Virus record (IMG/VR): IMGVR_UViG_3300048999_000343
Span: 1 to 25,550 of that record
Strand: one strand, 5' to 3'
Source of the DNA: a virus
DNA length: 25,550 nucleotides
The notes below the pieces were generated by a model. It did not search any database, was not told the origin of the DNA, and worked only from the letters and a program-made list of their open reading frames with translations. Numbering within the stretch: position 1 is the stretch's first letter; each line of letters opens with the position of its first letter. The translations under genes and the position numbers were made by a program. Shown here in pieces: positions 4,215 to 25,368 of this stretch.

Positions 4215-4529
4215 ATGAAGACCGGCGAAGCCCACTTGGTCTTGAATGAAGGTCTGGACGGCTCCGTGCGGCGGACCTGGAAAGCCCTGGCCGAGCGCGG
4301 CTTTCGTGATTTAGAGGTAGCCGACAACTATTCGTGGCTGACCGCCCGATGTAAAACCGCCGGGCAGTGGCGCACGAATATCTCGCTTTCGATCGCCTTC
4401 ACATCGATCGGGGAGGGCCGGACCGAGTTGACGCTGGTGACCTCTGCCACCGCCAACAGCCTCTGGTCCGTGGCTCGTCACCCCGCTGACATCGCCATCA
4501 AAGAGGCCATCAAGGCGATACAGGACTGA
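4215..4529 (+). CDS. Unknown small protein on the opposite strand (moron-like)
   Basis: The 104-residue product runs against the late genes, inserted between hub and spike. It reads as a real protein: an alpha/beta pattern with an N-terminal helix ([19 protein letters not shown]), central strands ([33 protein letters not shown]) and a C-terminal helix ([14 protein letters not shown]). The overall plan loosely resembles small bacterial proteins that end in a strand-rich domain and amphipathic helix, but I cannot assign a family. It has no signal peptide or membrane segment. Its stop is 8 nt from the hub gene's stop, so the two are convergent. Its own promoter signature suggests expression outside the late programme, for example during lysogeny or early infection. 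Function unknown. Confidence 0.75.
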
Positions 4530-9655: not shown

Positions 9656-10063
9656 CTACTTGGCGACCGGGCTGATTTCGACTTCGTACATCCGCAGGCT
9701 GGAGTCGTTGGAGTCCGACTCGACCTCCGAGACTTTGATGATCGTCCCGACCCGCACCGTGGCGCGACCGACCGGGTTCTCTTCATCGTCGACCGACTGC
9801 TTGCGGATCGTCGCGGCATTTTTGACGCCCCGGATGCTTTCGAGAAATTCCTTGACGCTTTCGTCGCGGGCGTCTTCGTAGACACGGCTGGTGACGATCG
9901 TGTCGCGGGTCTTCTTGCCGCCGTAGCTTTCTTCGACCCCACCGCCGGCGGTGTAGCGCTGATCTTCAGCGCCGGAGTCGCCTCCGGTCCAGGTATCCCA
10001 GATGCCACAGTCGCGGCCACCTGCGGAGAAGTAGACGATGAAGTTCTTTTTGGACGACGCCAT
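9656..10063 (-). CDS. Tail tube protein
   Basis: The 135-residue product forms the inner tube under the sheath. It starts MASSKKNFIVYFSAGGRD and has the short beta-sandwich profile of tube subunits: GGGVEESYGGKKTRDTIVTSRVY in the middle and ATVRVGTIIKVSEVESDSND toward the end, with many charged strands. It directly follows the sheath gene, and its ATG overlaps the sheath stop (TGATG), which keeps sheath and tube translation in step. Length is near the lower end for contractile tubes. Confidence 0.9.
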   Translation of the reverse strand: MASSKKNFIVYFSAGGRDCGIWDTWTGGDSGAEDQRYTAGGGVEESYGGKKTRDTIVTSRVYEDARDESVKEFLESIRGVKNAATIRKQSVDDEENPVGRATVRVGTIIKVSEVESDSNDSSLRMYEVEISPVAK

Positions 10064-11478
10064 CAGATCGCCTCCTTGACGATTTCGATTTCTATGACCT
10101 CGGCCAGCTCGCTCATGCGAACGGAGGCGATCGCCTTCAATTTGCCTTCTTCGATCGACAGCGGCGTGTTGACCGCTTCGCCGATGTCCACCGAGAATGC
10201 TTCGGCCTGCGTTTCACCGAACAGCGCTTCCTGGTTGAACAGCGGCAGCAGCACTTCGCCTTCGATCGCCGAGCCGAACTCCGCCGGCAGCTTCTTGCCG
10301 ATCTGGCGGAAGATGAACCGCTTCCCCACCGCGGCGGCCTCGGCCTTGATGAAGGCGTCGAGACGGGCATTGGAGAGGAACTGCCAGGTGTTGTCGACGA
10401 CGTAGTTGACGAGCGTCCTGTAGCCGTAGAGCTCGACCTGGCTGTTCAGCACCCGGAAGGCGTTGACCCCGGCTTCGTTCAGTTCGCCACGCTGGGCATC
10501 GGTCCACGCTGCCTGCGAGAGGCCGACCGCGTAGCTCGAGATCCCGTTGTCACCGGCGGCCGGCTCGTTCGGGTTCAACCCGAGGCCATCGTTGCGGGCC
10601 ATCAGCCCGGCGACAAGAGCGCACGGAGGAACGGTACGGGTGGTGCCGACCGAGATGCCGGGGATGACGACCCACGGCGCGAACAGGCCACCGTAGCGAG
10701 CCGTGTTCTGTCCTCTGAGCGTCGCCGCCTGCGCGGTGAGGGTGCCGACCGTCGCGGTATCGGTGCCGTCCAGCAGCGCGATCCGATTGGCCTGTTCGGC
10801 GTGGGAGAGCAGGCCCTCCTGCGCTTCGGCCGTGGTGCGGCCGGGCATCGAGACCTGACCTGGGCCGAGGTCCTTGGTGAACAGTTTCCGGGCGTTCGTC
10901 CACTGCGTCTCGGTGACGTTCGACCGGTCGTCGGCGCCGCTGGTCAGCGACTTGGTCGCGGCTTCCGGGTTGCCGTGGCCGAGGGTTTCGATCCGCAGGT
11001 ACGCGGTGCTGGCCGCCCAGGAGATCGCTTCCGCCGCGGTGCTGAGCGACGGGCTTTCGGCGACGACGACCCCGGCGAGTTTGACCACGAACTTGAACGT
11101 TTCCGAGGTCGGATGGGAGGTAACCACCGAGAGTTCGTTGCCCCATTCACCGGGTGAGGAGGCGTTGAAGACCAGCGTGTTGTTGGTTCCGTCTTTGATC
11201 GTGACGGTGGCGGTGACGGGCGTGGGCCCGACAACGCGCGTCACGTAGGCGACGCTGCCGCCCGTCTTGAAGAACAGGTCGAGGGCGTCGTAGAGCGAGC
11301 CGTAGGCGACCCTGGCCCCGAAGTTCGTCACGTACTGGGCGAGGCTCCGGATTTCGACCGCGATGTTGATCGGGCCTTTTTCCGCGAGGCCGGAGACGAA
11401 CCACGTCCCGATGGCCACGCGCTGAGAGGAGGAGCCTGCGCTGGCCCCCGACTTGACGAGCACTCCTGGGGTAGCCAT
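10063..11478 (-). CDS. Tail sheath protein
   Basis: The 471-residue protein is a contractile tail sheath, the diagnostic gene that makes this a myovirus-type tail. The N-terminus MATPGVLVKSGASAG followed by FVSGLAEKGPINIAVEIRSL and the 'FFKTGGSVAYVTRVVG' segment match the sheath family, as do VAGLMARNDGLGLNPNEPAAG and the C-terminal ERCR-like sequence LYGYRTLVNYVVDNTWQFLS with RLDAFIKAEAAAVGKRF. The middle (about 100-215) is a variable surface insertion. The ATG at 11478 has AAGGAGGAG upstream. Length is typical. Confidence 0.96.
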   Translation of the reverse strand: MATPGVLVKSGASAGSSSQRVAIGTWFVSGLAEKGPINIAVEIRSLAQYVTNFGARVAYGSLYDALDLFFKTGGSVAYVTRVVGPTPVTATVTIKDGTNNTLVFNASSPGEWGNELSVVTSHPTSETFKFVVKLAGVVVAESPSLSTAAEAISWAASTAYLRIETLGHGNPEAATKSLTSGADDRSNVTETQWTNARKLFTKDLGPGQVSMPGRTTAEAQEGLLSHAEQANRIALLDGTDTATVGTLTAQAATLRGQNTARYGGLFAPWVVIPGISVGTTRTVPPCALVAGLMARNDGLGLNPNEPAAGDNGISSYAVGLSQAAWTDAQRGELNEAGVNAFRVLNSQVELYGYRTLVNYVVDNTWQFLSNARLDAFIKAEAAAVGKRFIFRQIGKKLPAEFGSAIEGEVLLPLFNQEALFGETQAEAFSVDIGEAVNTPLSIEEGKLKAIASVRMSELAEVIEIEIVKEAI

Positions 11479-11664
11479 CTATGACTCCTCCTTTTTCGCT
11501 TTGGATTTGCTGGGGTGCGTGATCTCCACGAGCACCCCTCTGTCGATCAGGTCCTTGTCGTGCGGGTCATCGGCGTCGACACCCACGGCCAACTCGCCGG
11601 GGGCGAAGACGGCACCGGAGGCGATGTCCTCGGCGTGTGAGGACGACACTCGGTAACGGGACAT
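11479..11664 (-). CDS. Small conserved-position protein before the sheath
   Basis: This 61-residue protein begins MSRYRVSSSHAEDIASG and has a central segment LAVGVDADDPHDKDLIDRGVLVEI and a Lys-rich tail (KSKAKKEES). Small genes of this type are common just before sheath genes, and the 'D..DPHDKDLIDRGVL' pattern fits a small beta/alpha unit, but no function can be assigned. The ATG at 11664 has a strong GAAGGAGAGCT site, and that site is one copy of the 16-nt direct repeat flanking the adjacent plus-strand cassette. Its stop is next to the sheath start. Confidence 0.75.
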   Translation of the reverse strand: MSRYRVSSSHAEDIASGAVFAPGELAVGVDADDPHDKDLIDRGVLVEITHPSKSKAKKEES

Positions 11665-11665
11665 C

Positions 11666-11681
11666 AGCTCTCCTTCTCGGG
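11666..11681. repeat. 16-nt direct repeat, left copy
   Basis: AGCTCTCCTTCTCGGG occurs here and at 12319-12334 in the same orientation. Beyond the match both copies continue into TTGC (after two extra G here). On the minus strand this copy is the Shine-Dalgarno region of the gene starting at 11664. Confidence 0.85.
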
Positions 11682-11683
11682 GG

Positions 11684-11713
11684 TTGCGGGGCTGCCGAAA
11701 GGCGGCGTAGGAT
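11684..11713 (+). promoter_or_regulatory. Candidate leaderless promoter (TTGCGG-N18-TAGGAT)
   Basis: A -35-like TTGCGG (11684-11689) is 18 nt from a -10-like TAGGAT (11708-11713). The GTG start at 11720 lies 6 nt after the -10, so the transcript would begin at or next to the start codon. Confidence 0.55.
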
Positions 11714-11719
11714 GTGGGG

Positions 11720-12058
11720 GTGGCTGAGCAGAGCGACCTTCAGCAGCAGCTCATGGCCGAGGTTCGGCAGAAGCTCAACGAGCGCTTTGAGATGCGCCCG
11801 AACGACGCCTATACGGAGGCAGCCGTAAGGGCGGAAGGAACGCGCCTTGGCCAGGAAGTCTTTGGAGACCAGCTCGGCGGCATCGACATCGCGCACCTTT
11901 ACCGCTGCCCGACGCGAGACTGTGAGTTCGAGTCACTGGACGCGGAGGCCACTTGTCCGCTGCATGACCGCCGTGTATACGATTGCGGCTACTCCCTCGC
12001 CGTCCATTTAGTGCCTGAGGAGATCGAGTTCACGGTCGTGAAGGACTCAGATGGCTAA
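11720..12058 (+). CDS. Cysteine-containing unknown protein, moron-like
   Basis: The 112-residue product runs against the late operon. The N-terminal half is helical (DLQQQLMAEVRQKLNERFEM). The second half contains a possible zinc site: Cys-X4-Cys (RCPTRDCEF), then CPLH, then a further Cys in VYDCGYSL. I chose GTG at 11720, which is 6 nt after a TANNNT hexamer; a GTG at 11714 in the same frame is closer to that hexamer and less likely. Its stop overlaps the start of the next plus-strand gene by 8 nt, so the two are co-expressed. It has no membrane segment. I do not recognise the family; a small metal-binding regulatory or anti-host role is a guess. Confidence 0.75.
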   Translation: MAEQSDLQQQLMAEVRQKLNERFEMRPNDAYTEAAVRAEGTRLGQEVFGDQLGGIDIAHLYRCPTRDCEFESLDAEATCPLHDRRVYDCGYSLAVHLVPEEIEFTVVKDSDG

Positions 12059-12320
12059 ACATTTCGAGGAGGCGCCTTCGGGTGATGCGAGGGCGTTGGG
12101 AGATCAGATCCTTGCCGCCTCATCCGAGCTGGGCATCTCGCAGTCCACGGATGTAGAGGTCACTCTCGGAGCCGACTCCGTCATTGCTGACGAGGCTTCG
12201 ATCCTGGACTGGGGTGCGCTCGTCGTAGAGAGCCAAGGCGGCACTTCCGTCTACGTCGTCGGCCTGTCTCCGAAGGACGCTGCCGCGCTGCTCCGCCGAG
12301 CCGCAGATGCACTGGACTAG
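12051..12320 (+). CDS. Unknown small protein, second gene of the plus-strand pair
   Basis: The 89-residue acidic protein starts at ATG 12051 inside the end of the upstream gene, so it is probably translated by coupling. Its pattern suggests an alpha/beta fold: helix (DARALGDQILAASSELGI), strands (DVEVTLGADSVIA, WGALVVESQGGTSVYVVGL) and a C-terminal helix (PKDAAALLRRAADALD). It has no Cys, signal peptide or transmembrane segment. It ends 18 nt from the stop of the convergent minus-strand gene, right at the second copy of the direct repeat. Function unknown. Confidence 0.72.
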   Translation: MAKHFEEAPSGDARALGDQILAASSELGISQSTDVEVTLGADSVIADEASILDWGALVVESQGGTSVYVVGLSPKDAAALLRRAADALD

Positions 12321-12334
12321 CTCTCCTTCTCGGG
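12319..12334. repeat. 16-nt direct repeat, right copy
   Basis: AGCTCTCCTTCTCGGG, identical to 11666-11681. On the minus strand it reads as an orphan ribosome binding site just after the stop of the 85-residue gene at 12339-12596. The segment between the copies holds only the two plus-strand genes and their promoter. Confidence 0.85.
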
Positions 12335-12338
12335 TTGC

Positions 12339-12596
12339 TTAGAAGTCGCGGCCAACGCGGACTGCGACTGGCCCAAGCGAGATGAGGCGACGGTCCGTCG
12401 GGCCGGATCGATCGAACTCTTCGGTTCTGCTGCGAAGCCGCCCCCACGCGATGGTGGTCCCGCCTGAAGCTGGTAGGCCGGTGATGCTGAGGCCGCCTTC
12501 TCGATGCAAATTCACGCCGCAGGTAGAACCACCAGCAGATGCGGCGAGAATGGCGCTGCGGCCGTTGCGCCATGCGAAGATCTCAAGCTTGCGCAT
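12339..12596 (-). CDS. Small neck/tail-region protein of unknown function
   Basis: The 85-residue protein starts at ATG 12596, which shares one base with the upstream stop (TGATG) and has GAAGGAGGAG before it. That decides the start; a longer in-frame extension into the tail terminator gene reads as shadow. It is rich in Gly, Arg and Ser with alternating strands (KLEIFAWRNGRSAILAA, GLSITGLPASGGTTIAWG, RLISLGPVAVRVGRDF), suggesting a small beta fold. The position between tail terminator and sheath suggests a neck or tail-completion role. Family not recognised. Confidence 0.7.
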   Translation of the reverse strand: MRKLEIFAWRNGRSAILAASAGGSTCGVNLHREGGLSITGLPASGGTTIAWGRLRSRTEEFDRSGPTDRRLISLGPVAVRVGRDF

Positions 12597-13186
12597 CACT
12601 CCTCCTTCTCTTCCACGTCGACCTCCGTGGAGACGACGGTCGGCCATTCGGGTGGACTGCCTTCCGGATCGGGCGCGATCGGCCCTTCGCCGGTGTTGAG
12701 GAACTTTTCGTGGGTGACCTCGAAGACGGCGGCGACGACCACGCTGGTCCGGCGTAGCTCCAAGTTCTGCCCTGCGAAGCCCGCGCCCGTCATCTTCGAG
12801 ACGAAGATCAGGTCCGACAGCTTGCGGTGCTGGAGCATCGAGCCGATCACGGCGAGGCCATAGTGCTGGGCCTGCCTGCGGGTGCTGATCGCATCCTTGC
12901 CTTGGACGACCATCGCGACTTCGACCGCGAACGTCCCTGACAGGAAGCGTTCGCCGCTCTCCTCTGGTTCGTCGACCAGCCCGGCGGACTCCACGATGAC
13001 CGCTGGCAAGCCGTTCTCCGGCCATCTGGCGTACTCGGAGACCACCGTGTAGGACTTCGGTTCAGCCAGCGGCGAGGAGTGCTGACGGGCGACCTCTTTG
13101 CAGTAGGTCGGCATCCAGCGGCGTAGGTGTTCAACGACTGCCAGCTCGAGCTCGCCGCCGTAGCTCATCTCCCCGAAGAGGCTCAT
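12596..13186 (-). CDS. Tail terminator/neck protein
   Basis: The 196-residue product lies after the virion morphogenesis gene and before the sheath block, the usual slot of the tail terminator that caps the tail and joins it to the head. Visible features: N-terminal helix (ELELAVVEHLRRWMPTYCKEVAR), 'PAVIVESAGLVDEPEE', strands FAVEVAMVVQGKD, helix RRQAQHYGLAVIGSMLQH and a long C-terminal strand region (RRTSVVVAAVFEVTHEKF). This alternation is typical of DUF1834-like/gpU-like terminators. The acidic C-terminal tail is probably flexible. The ATG at 13186 has little Shine-Dalgarno support, but the start lies 1 nt beyond the preceding stop, so translation is probably coupled. Confidence 0.78.
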   Translation of the reverse strand: MSLFGEMSYGGELELAVVEHLRRWMPTYCKEVARQHSSPLAEPKSYTVVSEYARWPENGLPAVIVESAGLVDEPEESGERFLSGTFAVEVAMVVQGKDAISTRRQAQHYGLAVIGSMLQHRKLSDLIFVSKMTGAGFAGQNLELRRTSVVVAAVFEVTHEKFLNTGEGPIAPDPEGSPPEWPTVVSTEVDVEEKEE

Positions 13187-16748: not shown

Positions 16749-18179
16749 TCAGGTCTCCGACCGCTCGGTGATCGTCGTGATCGGGACAGCCGGTTCGCCA
16801 CCTGGGGCCTGCGCAGCAGCGAGTTCGCTCGAGGCTTCGATGCTGGCGACCCGCTCGGGAAGGTCGATCTTCTTTGCCCACTCTTCGACCTGCTGAGGAG
16901 AGGCGCCGATCATCGACCAGATCGCTTCGAGCGGGACGCTCAGGGCGCGTTTCTTCAGCGCCGCATCGACCATCTCGCCCTCCGAGCGATACTCCGGATC
17001 CCGCCAGATCGTTTCGGCGTTCATCGGTTTGCTCGGTTCGGCCGAGTCGGTCAACCCCAGCGCCAGCCTGATCGCCTCCTCCCAGCTGTCGGAGAAGTCC
17101 ACCTGCTTGCGCTTCACCTTGGAGACGAGACCGGTCTCGGCCGCCTTCAAGGCGTCGCCCGAGACATTCACGATCTGACCAAGCAGGTAGTGCGGCGGGG
17201 TGCGGGTCTGTGCGGCCAGGTGCTGAAGAAGAAGTTCGATCGCCTTGACGTAGTTGCCGAGGTCGGAGGCGGGCAGGCTGAAGACTTTTGCCTCGGCGTT
17301 CTCGAGCACCACCATGCGCTCGACTCCGCTTTTCAGCTTTTCCATCTCCGGGGTCGGATTGCCTTCGCTGTCGCTCTCGACTTCAAGGCCGGTGATGACC
17401 CGCTGCTGGAAGGCCGCGAACTCCGAGGCCACCAACATGTCGGCGAGCTCCTTGTTGATCGCGTCCTGAAGCGGGATGGCCGGTTTCAGGTCCGAGCGAC
17501 CGTCCCCGAGCATCGTCGGGTTGTTGTAGAGCGGGATGACCGGGACGATCGGCGCGCTTGGGTTGACGCCCGATTCTTCGCCTTCGAGAGGAGTCCAGTT
17601 ACGACCGACGCCGTCGATCGGCGGCACCTTCGACGGCGTCTTCGTCCGGTACTTGAAGATCCTGTCGGGCAGGTAGAGATTGGCGTATTCGTAGCCGTCG
17701 TCGTCACGCCATTTCTTCAGGGCGGCTTGACGGCGGCGACGGTTGCCCGGGGCGTGCTCGACCACGACCTGGGAGGCGTGCTCGACCGTGATCTGGGGAT
17801 ACTGGTCGCCAGGTTCGGCCGGTGCCACAAGGATGTAGGAGCGCCCATCTTTGACGGCCTCGGTATGAGCCATGACCGACTCCGAGTCGAGCCCGTTCGC
17901 CTGCCAGATGTCCCAGGCGCCGGTGTCCGCCGGTTTGTCGGAGCCGAACCTGAACCCCTCGACGAACAGTCGCTCTACGGGAGCATCGACCACGATCTCG
18001 CACCAGTTGTCAGCGAGGGCCCGGAAGAGGTAGCCGAACGACTGACGGAACTTCAAGGTGGCGAAGGCGAGTCGATGTTCGCCTTCGTAGTACTGCTCGT
18101 AGAGCTTTATTTCCTTCTGCTGAGCGGTCAGCTTGCGCTCGAGATAGCTGAGCCATGCTGCGGGGGTTTTCGAGGGCAA
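16749..18179 (-). CDS. Portal protein, SPP1 gp6-like
   Basis: The 476-residue product forms the dodecameric DNA channel of the head. The pattern is that of the Phage_prot_Gp6 portal family: an N-terminal helix (AAWLSYLERKLTAQQKEIKLYEQYYEGEH), ADNWCEIVVDAPVERLFVEGF, VPVIPLYNNPTMLGDGRSDL, LQDAINKELADMLVASEFAAFQQR, and a C-terminal crown (LLGQIVNVSGDALKAAETGLVSKVKRKQ). The start is TTG at 18179 with AAAGGT upstream; no other good start is near the family's expected N-terminus. It follows the large terminase by 19 nt, and the tail end is Pro/Ser-rich. Confidence 0.95.
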   Translation of the reverse strand: MPSKTPAAWLSYLERKLTAQQKEIKLYEQYYEGEHRLAFATLKFRQSFGYLFRALADNWCEIVVDAPVERLFVEGFRFGSDKPADTGAWDIWQANGLDSESVMAHTEAVKDGRSYILVAPAEPGDQYPQITVEHASQVVVEHAPGNRRRRQAALKKWRDDDGYEYANLYLPDRIFKYRTKTPSKVPPIDGVGRNWTPLEGEESGVNPSAPIVPVIPLYNNPTMLGDGRSDLKPAIPLQDAINKELADMLVASEFAAFQQRVITGLEVESDSEGNPTPEMEKLKSGVERMVVLENAEAKVFSLPASDLGNYVKAIELLLQHLAAQTRTPPHYLLGQIVNVSGDALKAAETGLVSKVKRKQVDFSDSWEEAIRLALGLTDSAEPSKPMNAETIWRDPEYRSEGEMVDAALKKRALSVPLEAIWSMIGASPQQVEEWAKKIDLPERVASIEASSELAAAQAPGGEPAVPITTITERSET

Positions 18180-18198
18180 GTTCGCTGACCTTTCCTAG

Positions 18199-19791
18199 CT
18201 AGGCGATGAAGGCGATGCCCTTCTTCTTTGGCTTCGCGCCGGCGGCTATCGCGTCACCGCGTGCCTCCCAGGACAGGACCCCTGCGACCGCGCCGTCTAC
18301 TTTGCGCGGAGATTCGGAGTTGTCCTTGCCGATCGAGTGCATCTGACGATGCTTCTCGTCGTAGACCTTGACCATCCGCTTGACGGCGTTCTTGATGTGG
18401 CTAGCGAAGGTGAGGTCGCCGTCGTGTTCGAAGTCCTTGGCGGCGATGGCTTCGCTGTATTTGCGGACCGCCCACGCCATCGGTCTCGGTTTGTTGGTAA
18501 ACCAGCGAATGACGAGCTTTTCTCCCCAGCGACCCTGCCAGATGTTGACCCAGTCCTCGATTTCCTGAGGGTCGGCATAAAGCCTCCACACCTCGTAGGT
18601 CTCAAACGCTTCGGAAAGGGCCCCGTCGATCTCCCCGAAGGGATGTTCGTAGTCATCCGGCGCTTTGGGAGGTCGCTCCCAGATGCCGACGGTCCATTGC
18701 CGACCGGACTCGACCTCGGTGCCAATGATCGCGAGCGCATCGAGGAACCTGGCCCCGTCGATCCCGAGGGTCACCAGAGCTTTCGGCTCGGGTCTCCATG
18801 CGGTCCTCGCCATGTCGTCCCAGCACTCCCCGTTGAGCGCTTTCGCCTCGTCGGCTTCCTTCCGATTCAGGAACCAACGCTCAGCTTGGCCGGGATCGCG
18901 TGGCAGAAGAGCCCTGATCTCGGAATCGATCCGATCAGGATCAATCCACGGGGTAATCGCGCCCTTCTTCCCACCTCGCTGACCCGTCATCGAATCGCCG
19001 TAGACGATTCTCAGTGCGCGCCTGCGCTCGACCTTGTTGCGGATCGAAAGACCTTCAGGGGGCTCAATGTCGTCGTGGAAGACGCCATCGCGCTCATGCT
19101 CGGCGGTGTGCTGGGCGACGGACTCCTCAGTGGGGTCGTATGCGTTCGGCGTCGAGAGCCAGCGACCGCCCGTCCCCGCAAGATTTCGGCGCTGGGCGTC
19201 GGCGAGTTTCCGTCCCTTGTTCGTCCGAAGCCAGGACTCAGTCTGGTCCTGGGCCGAGAAGGTGATCCGTTGTCCGAGCCGCGAGATTGCTGAGGCCGTG
19301 ACTGGTTTGATGCTGCCGCCGCCCGGAAGGTTGATCCGGCCTATGCCAGTGTCGTCGATCTCAGCGTGGAGCGCCCCAAGTTCGATCATGGGAAGAAGGG
19401 CCGAATAGATGTTCTCGGTCTGGTCCTCCGAGACCGCCGTGATCTGGATCAACGGCGTCGCCCAAGGTTTTCCGACTGGCTCGCCGGATGCATCCCAGCC
19501 GTCGAAGAGCGCTGGGCCCTGGGCCTCGGCGCAAACGAGCGCCGCAGCTAACGGTCCCTTTCCCCACTTCTGCGGCCGGGTGAGCTGCGCACCGCGGTCG
19601 TAGGTGAATCGCCCCGACCCAGGGGCGAGTCGGTAAAAGTGAAGAATGAAGCGGAGCTGTTCATCGGTAAGGAGGAATGAATTGCCGACCGCCTCGCGAT
19701 CCGGGATGGCACAGCGAGCCTCGATCCAATCGGCGATTGCGTAGCCGAGCGTGGGAAATTCCCCGGGGACCTCCGGCCCGCGCCAGGGCAT
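18199..19791 (-). CDS. terL: Terminase large subunit
   Basis: The 530-residue ATPase/nuclease packages DNA into the procapsid. The ATPase part has the Walker A-like RPQKWGKG at residues 72-79, LAAALVCAEAQGP after it, the AVSEDQTENIYSALLPM motif, and a Walker B-like ITFSAQDQTES near 176-186. The nuclease part shows TLGIDGARFLDALAI (Asp about 345), RLYADPQEIEDW (Asp about 407) and the final acidic KVDGAVAGVLSW (Asp about 503), consistent with RNase H-fold metal binding. The start ATG at 19791 is close behind the small subunit stop; its Shine-Dalgarno site is weak. This actinophage-like subtype is usually found in cos- or pac-packagers; the mechanism cannot be told here. Confidence 0.96.
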   Translation of the reverse strand: MPWRGPEVPGEFPTLGYAIADWIEARCAIPDREAVGNSFLLTDEQLRFILHFYRLAPGSGRFTYDRGAQLTRPQKWGKGPLAAALVCAEAQGPALFDGWDASGEPVGKPWATPLIQITAVSEDQTENIYSALLPMIELGALHAEIDDTGIGRINLPGGGSIKPVTASAISRLGQRITFSAQDQTESWLRTNKGRKLADAQRRNLAGTGGRWLSTPNAYDPTEESVAQHTAEHERDGVFHDDIEPPEGLSIRNKVERRRALRIVYGDSMTGQRGGKKGAITPWIDPDRIDSEIRALLPRDPGQAERWFLNRKEADEAKALNGECWDDMARTAWRPEPKALVTLGIDGARFLDALAIIGTEVESGRQWTVGIWERPPKAPDDYEHPFGEIDGALSEAFETYEVWRLYADPQEIEDWVNIWQGRWGEKLVIRWFTNKPRPMAWAVRKYSEAIAAKDFEHDGDLTFASHIKNAVKRMVKVYDEKHRQMHSIGKDNSESPRKVDGAVAGVLSWEARGDAIAAGAKPKKKGIAFIA

Positions 19792-21537: not shown

Positions 21538-21762
21538 ATGTCAGATAACGCGATCGCCACCAACTTCATGAACTTCGCTCAACGCGTCTTCCAGCTCGAT
21601 CTGCCGTTCACGATCGAGGGGAATGGAGATGCGGGCTACGCGGTCGCCAATATCACCTGCTTCGAGCTTGGGCACTACGAAAAGTGCATCGATCTCGCGA
21701 AGGCACGAGATCTGAAGGCCCGGCCGTTTGCAGAAGGAATCAGCCTGGTGTTCGAAAGCTAG
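21538..21762 (+). CDS. Small unknown protein on the plus strand (moron-like)
   Basis: The 74-residue product is encoded against its neighbours and reads as a real protein: helix (DNAIATNFMNFAQRVFQLDL), strands (PFTIEGNGDAGYAVANITCF), helix (GHYEKCIDLAKARDLKARP) and a final strand. The minus-strand alternative in the same stretch is less protein-like. It starts divergently from the split gene's start (39 nt apart) and is preceded by a TANNNT leaderless-type signature. Family not recognised; probably a small regulatory or host-interaction protein. Confidence 0.68.
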   Translation: MSDNAIATNFMNFAQRVFQLDLPFTIEGNGDAGYAVANITCFELGHYEKCIDLAKARDLKARPFAEGISLVFES

Positions 21763-24014: not shown

Positions 24015-24106
24015 CGCGCTCCTTCCTCTGCTCGGTTTGCTCGACGACGACGTTCCCACCACCGGACAGCTGCGTAGGCGGCGACGTACGGGATCCACTT
24101 CCTCAT
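24011..24106 (-). CDS. 31-residue hydrophobic/basic micropeptide
   Basis: ATG 24106 has GAAGGAG upstream and overlaps the AAA ATPase stop (ATGA). The ORF ends by ATGA overlap with the coiled-coil gene at 24014. The peptide starts MRKWIPYVAAYAAVRWW, a short hydrophobic and Trp-rich segment, followed by an Arg-rich stretch (ERRRRANRAEE) and GAR. Coupling on both sides supports a real gene. It may be an amphipathic or membrane-anchoring peptide. Confidence 0.65.
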   Translation of the reverse strand: MRKWIPYVAAYAAVRWWERRRRANRAEEGAR

Positions 24107-25368
24107 GCGATCTCCTTCGCGGGAAGACGTTCGGCGGTTCGTGCGGCGGCGATCAGACTCGACGGGCTGGCACCGACGAAAGCGCCCGGGTCGAGCTGCG
24201 CGCCGAAGTGGTCGGCGAGGTCACGGGCCTGCTCGGCGTCGAGGGGCGTGAACTCCTCGTCCACGTCGATCCGGCCGGCGCGGATCAGCGCGTCATCGAG
24301 CTTCGCCTTGTCGTTCGTGGTGAGGATCGTGATCAGGCCGTGCGGGGTCCAGATCCCGTCGAGCGCGTTCAGCATCCCGGCGACCGAGACCTTGTCTTTG
24401 TCCTCGTCTCGCTCGGTGGCGGCGTGGAAGACGTCCACGTCCTCGATCAGCAGCACGGAGCGTGACTCGATCTGCCCGACGAAGTTCATGAGGTCGGTGT
24501 CCTGCTCGATGTCGCCGAGCGGCAGGTAGTAGGTCGGGAGGCCGAAGTGGTTGGCGAGCGCGCGGGCGATCGACGTCTTGCCGGTACCGGGTGCTCCGTG
24601 GAAGAGGTAGCCGCGGTGCCAGGGCTGAGACATCCGGTTGTAGTCGTCCTCGGAGGCGAGGAAGTCGGCGAGGTCGTCGACCAGGCGCTCGCGCTGGCCA
24701 GCCTTGAGGACGACGCTGTCCAGAGTGCGGGCCGGTAGATCACCGCGCCGCTGCCAGCTTCCACCCCATCGGGCGGGCACGAACAGCGCGGGCAGTCGCG
24801 GCCCGGCGTCTTTTTCGACGAGAAGGCCGTTGATGGTCGAGACGACGGCGTCCCGTCCCTCGATGGTCGAGGCGCAGAAGATGATCTTCTCCGTCCTCTT
24901 GCGCAGCCACGCGATCTCTTCGCGCTCGACCGAGATGTCCACCCGATGGCCGTCGATCGACACGGTCTGTCGCCGCGCACCGTCGTAGCGGAGATGTACG
25001 CGGCGAGGCTCAGGCCTCTCACCGAGCTCGACGTGCGCCTTCACGTCTTGGGGGCCGTCGCCATGGCTGGAGGCCGACGTCGAGGCGATGAGGGCCTTGC
25101 GGTCCGCCTCCGGCATCCGCGCCAGCACCCACTCGTGAAGGTCCGGATAGATGTCATCGTCGTTGTCGACGGTGATCGTGAAGACATCGCGGTTTCGGGC
25201 CTTGTCGTAGGCCCATTTCGCCAACGGGGCGATGGTCTGCGCAGCCGCGAGCATCGCGAAGGCCTGTTTGGTCCGCTTGCCGCCAAGCAGCTCGATCGAG
25301 GCGAGCCGGCTCATATCGAACCCGGCCGTGGAGTCTGCCTTGGCCTGCTGGTCGGGCTGGAACCTCAC
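24103..25368 (-). CDS. BCS1-like AAA ATPase
   Basis: The 421-residue protein has a C-terminal AAA module: Walker A GAPGTGKT (258-265), Walker B VLLIEDVD (305-312), sensor 1 TTND (350-353) and the Arg-finger region DDALIRAGRIDV (358-369), with SVAGMLNALDGIW as in the BCS1 family. A linker PARTLDSVVLKAGQRERLVDDLADFLASEDDYNR-type segment precedes the Walker A. Residues 1-190 resemble the BCS1 N-terminal domain but without a clear membrane anchor. Family members use ATP to translocate or remodel folded proteins; in phages the role is unknown. GTG 25368 overlaps the preceding ORF (GTGA); ATG 25314 is an alternative start. Confidence 0.9.
   Translation of the reverse strand: MRFQPDQQAKADSTAGFDMSRLASIELLGGKRTKQAFAMLAAAQTIAPLAKWAYDKARNRDVFTITVDNDDDIYPDLHEWVLARMPEADRKALIASTSASSHGDGPQDVKAHVELGERPEPRRVHLRYDGARRQTVSIDGHRVDISVEREEIAWLRKRTEKIIFCASTIEGRDAVVSTINGLLVEKDAGPRLPALFVPARWGGSWQRRGDLPARTLDSVVLKAGQRERLVDDLADFLASEDDYNRMSQPWHRGYLFHGAPGTGKTSIARALANHFGLPTYYLPLGDIEQDTDLMNFVGQIESRSVLLIEDVDVFHAATERDEDKDKVSVAGMLNALDGIWTPHGLITILTTNDKAKLDDALIRAGRIDVDEEFTPLDAEQARDLADHFGAQLDPGAFVGASPSSLIAAARTAERLPAKEIA

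Follow-up and report, generated by a model that had tools for sequence, protein, structure and literature searches.

How did two genes on the plus strand come to sit inside a tail operon that is otherwise read from the minus strand, and is the short repeat at their edges a trace of their entry? The stretch of DNA analysed here (the window) is an entire virus record of 25,550 nt, a fragment of a contractile-tailed phage whose terminase, portal, capsid, neck and sheath genes all lie on the minus strand. In the direction of transcription of the tail operon, the genes around the plus-strand pair are a tail-terminator-like gene (12596-13186), so called from its position between neck and sheath, an 85-aa gene (12339-12596), a 61-aa gene (11479-11664) and the tail sheath gene (10063-11478; PF04984, 9.2e-10; phrog_23, 3e-35). 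The history that we consider probable is that a moron, made up of a promoter-like element and two coupled genes, was inserted at the ribosome binding site (RBS) of the 61-aa gene with ~16 nt of the target duplicated on both sides, and that this was probably the second insertion at the same boundary.

The repeat, AGCTCTCCTTCTCGGG, is found at 11666-11681 and 12319-12334, both copies being exact and lying either side of the two plus-strand genes, as a preliminary description of this DNA had reported, and there are two exact copies in the window. The same description had taken the left copy, read on the minus strand, for the RBS of the gene at 11664, and the right copy for an orphan RBS behind the 85-residue gene. 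Both assignments held: the minus strand reads CCCGAGAAGGAGAGCT at the left copy, which provides the 61-aa gene ahead of the tail sheath with its RBS, and only this copy sits at a start. The RBS core GAGAAGGAG is present in the window three times, all at the cassette locus and all on the minus strand, with copy 1 (12602-12610) within the 3' end of the terminator-like gene as the RBS of the 85-aa gene, copy 2 in the orphan right repeat, and copy 3 in the left repeat, before the 61-aa gene.

At 16 nt, the repeat is the longest exact direct repeat of the record (the runner-up has 15 nt, with its copies 22 kb apart), as well as the longest among the 31 matches listed by a scan for direct repeats (13 nt or longer) with an RBS core preceding an ORF. 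From dinucleotide shuffles, the expected number of repeats that reach 16 nt and have their copies within 1 kb is 0.017. Repeat length alone is nevertheless weak evidence, because 68 repeats that reach this length, with copies no more than 1.5 kb apart, lie in 1.16 Mb of related contigs. Most of them are of short period or apparently intragenic, and the count corresponds to a background of ~1.5 per 25 kb, above the shuffle level. What distinguishes the repeat is its position and its comparison with other RBSs, rather than its length. When 24 gene-upstream regions and the orphan site (24 nt each) were combined into 300 pairs, the pair of the left copy and the orphan shared 16 nt and the next best pair 10 nt; the 16-nt identity exceeds RBS convergence. 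A longer repeat of 20-32 nt, obtained by allowing gaps and counting GCAACC and GTCC-GT matches, was no better than chance (P about 0.4 for the gapped GCAACC match) and was rejected.

Of the two genes between the repeat copies, cassette gene 1 (11720-12058, plus strand, 112 aa) likely starts at GTG 11720, the ORF list giving 11714-12058, and its protein carries a Cys/His cluster, CPTRDCEF...CPLHD. Cassette gene 2 (12051-12320, plus strand, 89 aa) overlaps gene 1 by 8 nt (ATGGCTAA), and both genes have a positive codon score on their own strand. Homologues of gene 1 were found neither in viral contigs and bacterial genomes, where the scans used exact peptides and are blind to distant relatives, nor in phage and plasmid records or 24 related contigs. 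Neither cassette protein matched a transposase, an integrase or any other family, and their single-sequence structure predictions were of low confidence (mean pLDDT 63 and 49). For gene 2, one relative was detectable (67% identity over residues 30-89), at 5848-6204 of L120, an otherwise different 53-kb contig. Here the protein homology stops at ALD, the last residue before the repeat, and the L120 protein runs seven residues further (ASQSPPS); the DNA homology likewise stops at the repeat edge. The TAG stop of gene 2 (12318-12320) consists of a T followed by two bases (AG) from the right repeat. The C-terminus of gene 2 was apparently clipped at the junction, and an end at the repeat is what one would expect had a foreign gene been fused there to the DNA of the recipient, with the thin support of a single relative; a natural difference in C-terminal length instead of clipping is possible. 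In composition, the GC3 of the cassette genes is 0.70-0.74, and that of the three accessory genes together (with the 85-aa gene) 0.67-0.74, against 0.81-0.86 for the sheath, capsid, portal, neck and terminator-like genes. The contrast with the structural genes is only moderate, because terL and the tape measure gene have a GC3 of 0.76-0.78.

In front of gene 1, a promoter-like element (11684-11719, plus strand) was identified by eye, in which TTGCGG (11684-11689) is followed after 18 nt by TAGGAT (11708-11713) and, 6 nt further, by GTG 11720. It contains the hairpin-forming GCTGCCGAAAGGCGGC at 11691-11706, and it was not recovered by a scan for the sigma-70 consensus. The arrangement of TAGGNT and a start occurs in the window only at 11708 and 21526, with none at the minus-strand genes, and these two occurrences compare with 0.87 expected by chance, so that the excess is small. 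L120 has a site with a fuller version of the element (TTGACA, 17 nt, TAGGGT, 7 nt, ATG). Taken together, the element suggests that the transcript of the cassette is leaderless and would start from a predicted promoter right next to the left repeat, on its inner side. A scan of 11400-12700, blind to terminators lacking a T-run, gave no intrinsic terminator.

The state of the site without the cassette can be read from relatives. A search with the capsid gave 72 viral contigs, and the nearest relatives that cover the site are L005, L006 and L067 (capsid 72-77%, portal 78-80%); the capsid query had no relative among bacterial genomes and so gave no hint of a host, whilst among viral contigs the sheath query matched L003 only and the terminator-like query had no match. 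In the three nearest relatives the order is neck, terminator-like gene (44-46% identity to that of the window), a 61-aa homologue directly after it, and sheath, with both the cassette and the 85-aa gene absent. In all three, the terminator-like gene passes into the 61-aa homologue through one stop/RBS/start phrase, namely GTGGAGAAGGAGAACTGATG in L005 and GTGCAAAAGGAGAACTGATG in L006 and L067, and the syntenic phrase of L005, GAGAAGGAGAACTGATG, has one mismatch in 17 nt to the minus-strand left repeat plus start codon. Farther sheath-bearing relatives have no room for extra genes, with the exception of L042 and its 4-kb gap, and none of the relatives compared carries the 85-aa gene without the cassette. 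The prediction that relatives would hold an empty site with a single repeat was thus borne out as regards the one RBS phrase, but not as a direct precursor: the 85-aa gene is absent too, so these relatives represent the state before two changes. When the flanks in the window are joined in silico, with one repeat and the cassette removed, the result is TAA-GCAACCCGAGAAGGAGAGCTG-ATG, which is the normal junction with one RBS that the preliminary description had foreseen. Because the joined flanks give such a junction, a clean reversion by loss of one repeat plus the cassette would be possible.

The 85-aa gene looks like an accessory gene as well. Its homologue in L121, an unrelated contig, has 50% identity and lies near HNH-like and terminase-like genes. 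In the window, the end of the terminator-like gene is a GAAGAGAAGGAGGAGTGATG of its own that also provides the start of the 85-aa gene. Since the relatives lack both the cassette and the 85-aa gene, and given this GAAGAGAAGGAGGAGTGATG, the simplest history would be one of two insertions at a single boundary. On the sequence, we infer an order in which the 85-aa gene would have come first and the reverse-strand pair second, at the same boundary, with each event keeping both neighbours supplied with an RBS. In the second event, the two translationally coupled genes with their promoter-like element would have entered in an orientation opposite to that of the contractile-tail operon and precisely at the RBS that serves the 61-aa gene, most likely by illegitimate recombination, staggered or short-homology joining, or template switching during phage replication. 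Such a join would leave the cassette flanked on either side by ~16 nt of the target, RBS included; the left copy would keep serving the 61-aa gene, and the right copy would now only close the clipped frame of gene 2. The insertion may have been tolerated because the duplicated RBS kept all tail genes intact and the operon translatable. The preliminary description had proposed insertion by duplication or recombination at an RBS, and the insertion itself stood, given three relatives without the cassette and with one RBS phrase, and a gene end cut at the repeat. The duplication is another matter, since it is inseparable from the import of a similar second RBS, because exact matches to the 19-nt phrase exist in unrelated phage contigs.

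This import is the main rival reading, which we regard as rather unlikely. It holds that the cassette arrived with its own RBS-like flank and was exchanged at a shared stop/RBS/start phrase, in which case the repeat would be two similar linkers and no target would have been duplicated. Such phrases do arise independently, as the 19-mer CCGAGAAGGAGAGCTGATG, a stop/RBS/start phrase, has four exact matches in viral contigs (L122, L123, L124 and L125), all at unrelated genes. However, the exchange requires that a donor carried the phrase next to the cassette, and L120, the sole relative of gene 2, has no phrase adjoining; the phrase is also rare, its last 12 nt or more being absent from the 1.16 Mb of related contigs. 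If instead the two RBS-like sequences were alike by coincidence or functional convergence, with the orphan perhaps serving an unrecognised short antisense ORF, the 16-nt identity would have to fall precisely at both cassette edges, and other RBS pairs of this phage share at most 10 nt. A GTG ~10 nt behind the orphan does open a 43-codon frame (the end of the minus-strand ORF 12181-12573), and repeats of this length have the background rate in related phages given above, but the codon score of the antisense frame is strongly negative (-0.51), and we hold this explanation to be very unlikely.

Even less credit is due to a small mobile element, transposon-like or similar to the mycobacteriophage mobile elements MPME1 and MPME2, with a 16-nt target-site duplication. 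A direct repeat at each edge would be in keeping with it, and at ~640 nt the cassette is near the size of ultra-small phage elements (MPME1 has 439 bp, PMC3029335), with which it shares the very small insertion and an actinophage-like genome. However, MPMEs have terminal inverted repeats and their insertions add 6 bp (PMC3029335), whereas the cassette has a 16-nt direct repeat and no such inverted repeats. Transposition is unlikely because no inverted repeats pair the ends and there is no transposase; nor was there an integrase or other enzyme match, and neither the window nor 24 related contigs showed a second copy of the cassette. Membership among MPMEs or transposable elements was rejected on the lack of end-pairing inverted repeats, of a recombinase match and of further copies in those contigs.

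Insertion of a moron at a duplicated RBS can also be set against known systems. A transcription terminator of its own is a common part of the moron concept, and no terminator-like site was seen in 11400-12700 by the scan that misses those without a T-run. In the definition of PMC2629481, morons are genes that appear inserted when related phages are compared, and a terminator is not required. The cassette is like the morons of that description in being extra genes in a morphogenetic operon, in reverse orientation, absent at the same boundary from L005, L006 and L067, with a promoter-like element in front (TAGGAT 6 nt before GTG 11720, yet no consensus promoter match) and a GC3 lower than that of most structural genes, the contrast being moderate. 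By insertion and composition it would be classed as a moron, its expression being predicted. It differs in that a duplicated RBS of 16 nt still marks its junction, and in that no terminator was found. The start-associated sequences (SAS) of Cluster K mycobacteriophages (PMC3203893), GGGATAGGAGCCC, are present at many starts per genome, at non-structural genes. As in SAS, the repeat is a repeated sequence whose Shine-Dalgarno core lies shortly before a start codon, but it has two copies only, one without a start behind it, in a tail operon. Membership in SAS was rejected, there being two exact copies and only one at a start. The literature on RBS-flanked morons yielded nothing matching.

The case is a clear but fairly ordinary example of phage gene acquisition, with an unusually legible junction. 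The entry of morons into tightly packed, overlapping late genes is rarely visible, and in our case the cassette junction can still be read. The duplicated RBS shows how the inserted pair and the surrounding tail genes could all remain intact, and it predicts clean loss via recombination between the repeats. Should boundaries in other late operons turn out to carry such a mark, recent gene gains in phages could be traced by looking for orphan RBS copies. A wider reading, which we consider doubtful, is that the stop/RBS/start phrases of late operons are recurrent insertion sites, at which each entry duplicates the RBS and thereby keeps the genes on either side translatable; the cassette locus, with its three related RBS cores, would then record two rounds, the 85-aa gene and then the reverse-strand pair.

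Several further observations were made along the window and its relatives. At gene ends, CCGAGAAGGAGAGCTGATG takes the form of an EKES-stop/RBS/start overlap, in L122 and L125 alike, and is apparently a recurrent coupling phrase. The homologues of the 61-aa protein in L067 (13716-14024) and L005 (5766-6077) have a C-terminal E3_binding domain (PF02817, E 6e-9 and 5e-6). This peripheral subunit-binding domain, which belongs to 2-oxoacid dehydrogenases, is unexpected in a phage tail operon, and the protein of the window (11479-11664) ends before it. Single plus-strand genes at 4215-4529 (104 aa) and 21538-21762 (74 aa) also oppose minus-strand operons; they had no family matches and no convincing flanking repeats, and in the one at 21538 the ATG follows 6 nt after a TAGGCT, an arrangement like that of the cassette. 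A sharp mosaic break lies at the portal/terminase boundary (window 16749-19791; L080 7563-10440), where the portal is ~80% identical to those of L080 and L067, and the large terminase preceding it has no match to that of the window. The 98-aa and 148-aa genes adjoin in the window, and their homologues in relatives are separated by 3-5 kb (L067 8822-12219, L006 8065-11468, L007 5748-10595 and L008 9332-14602), a stretch that in L067 includes a 628-aa fibre-like protein. Finally, the minus-strand gene at 24103-25368 encodes an AAA ATPase with a BCS1_N match (PF08740, 1.9e-7), which weakly resembles the IetA/TRIP13 defence models.
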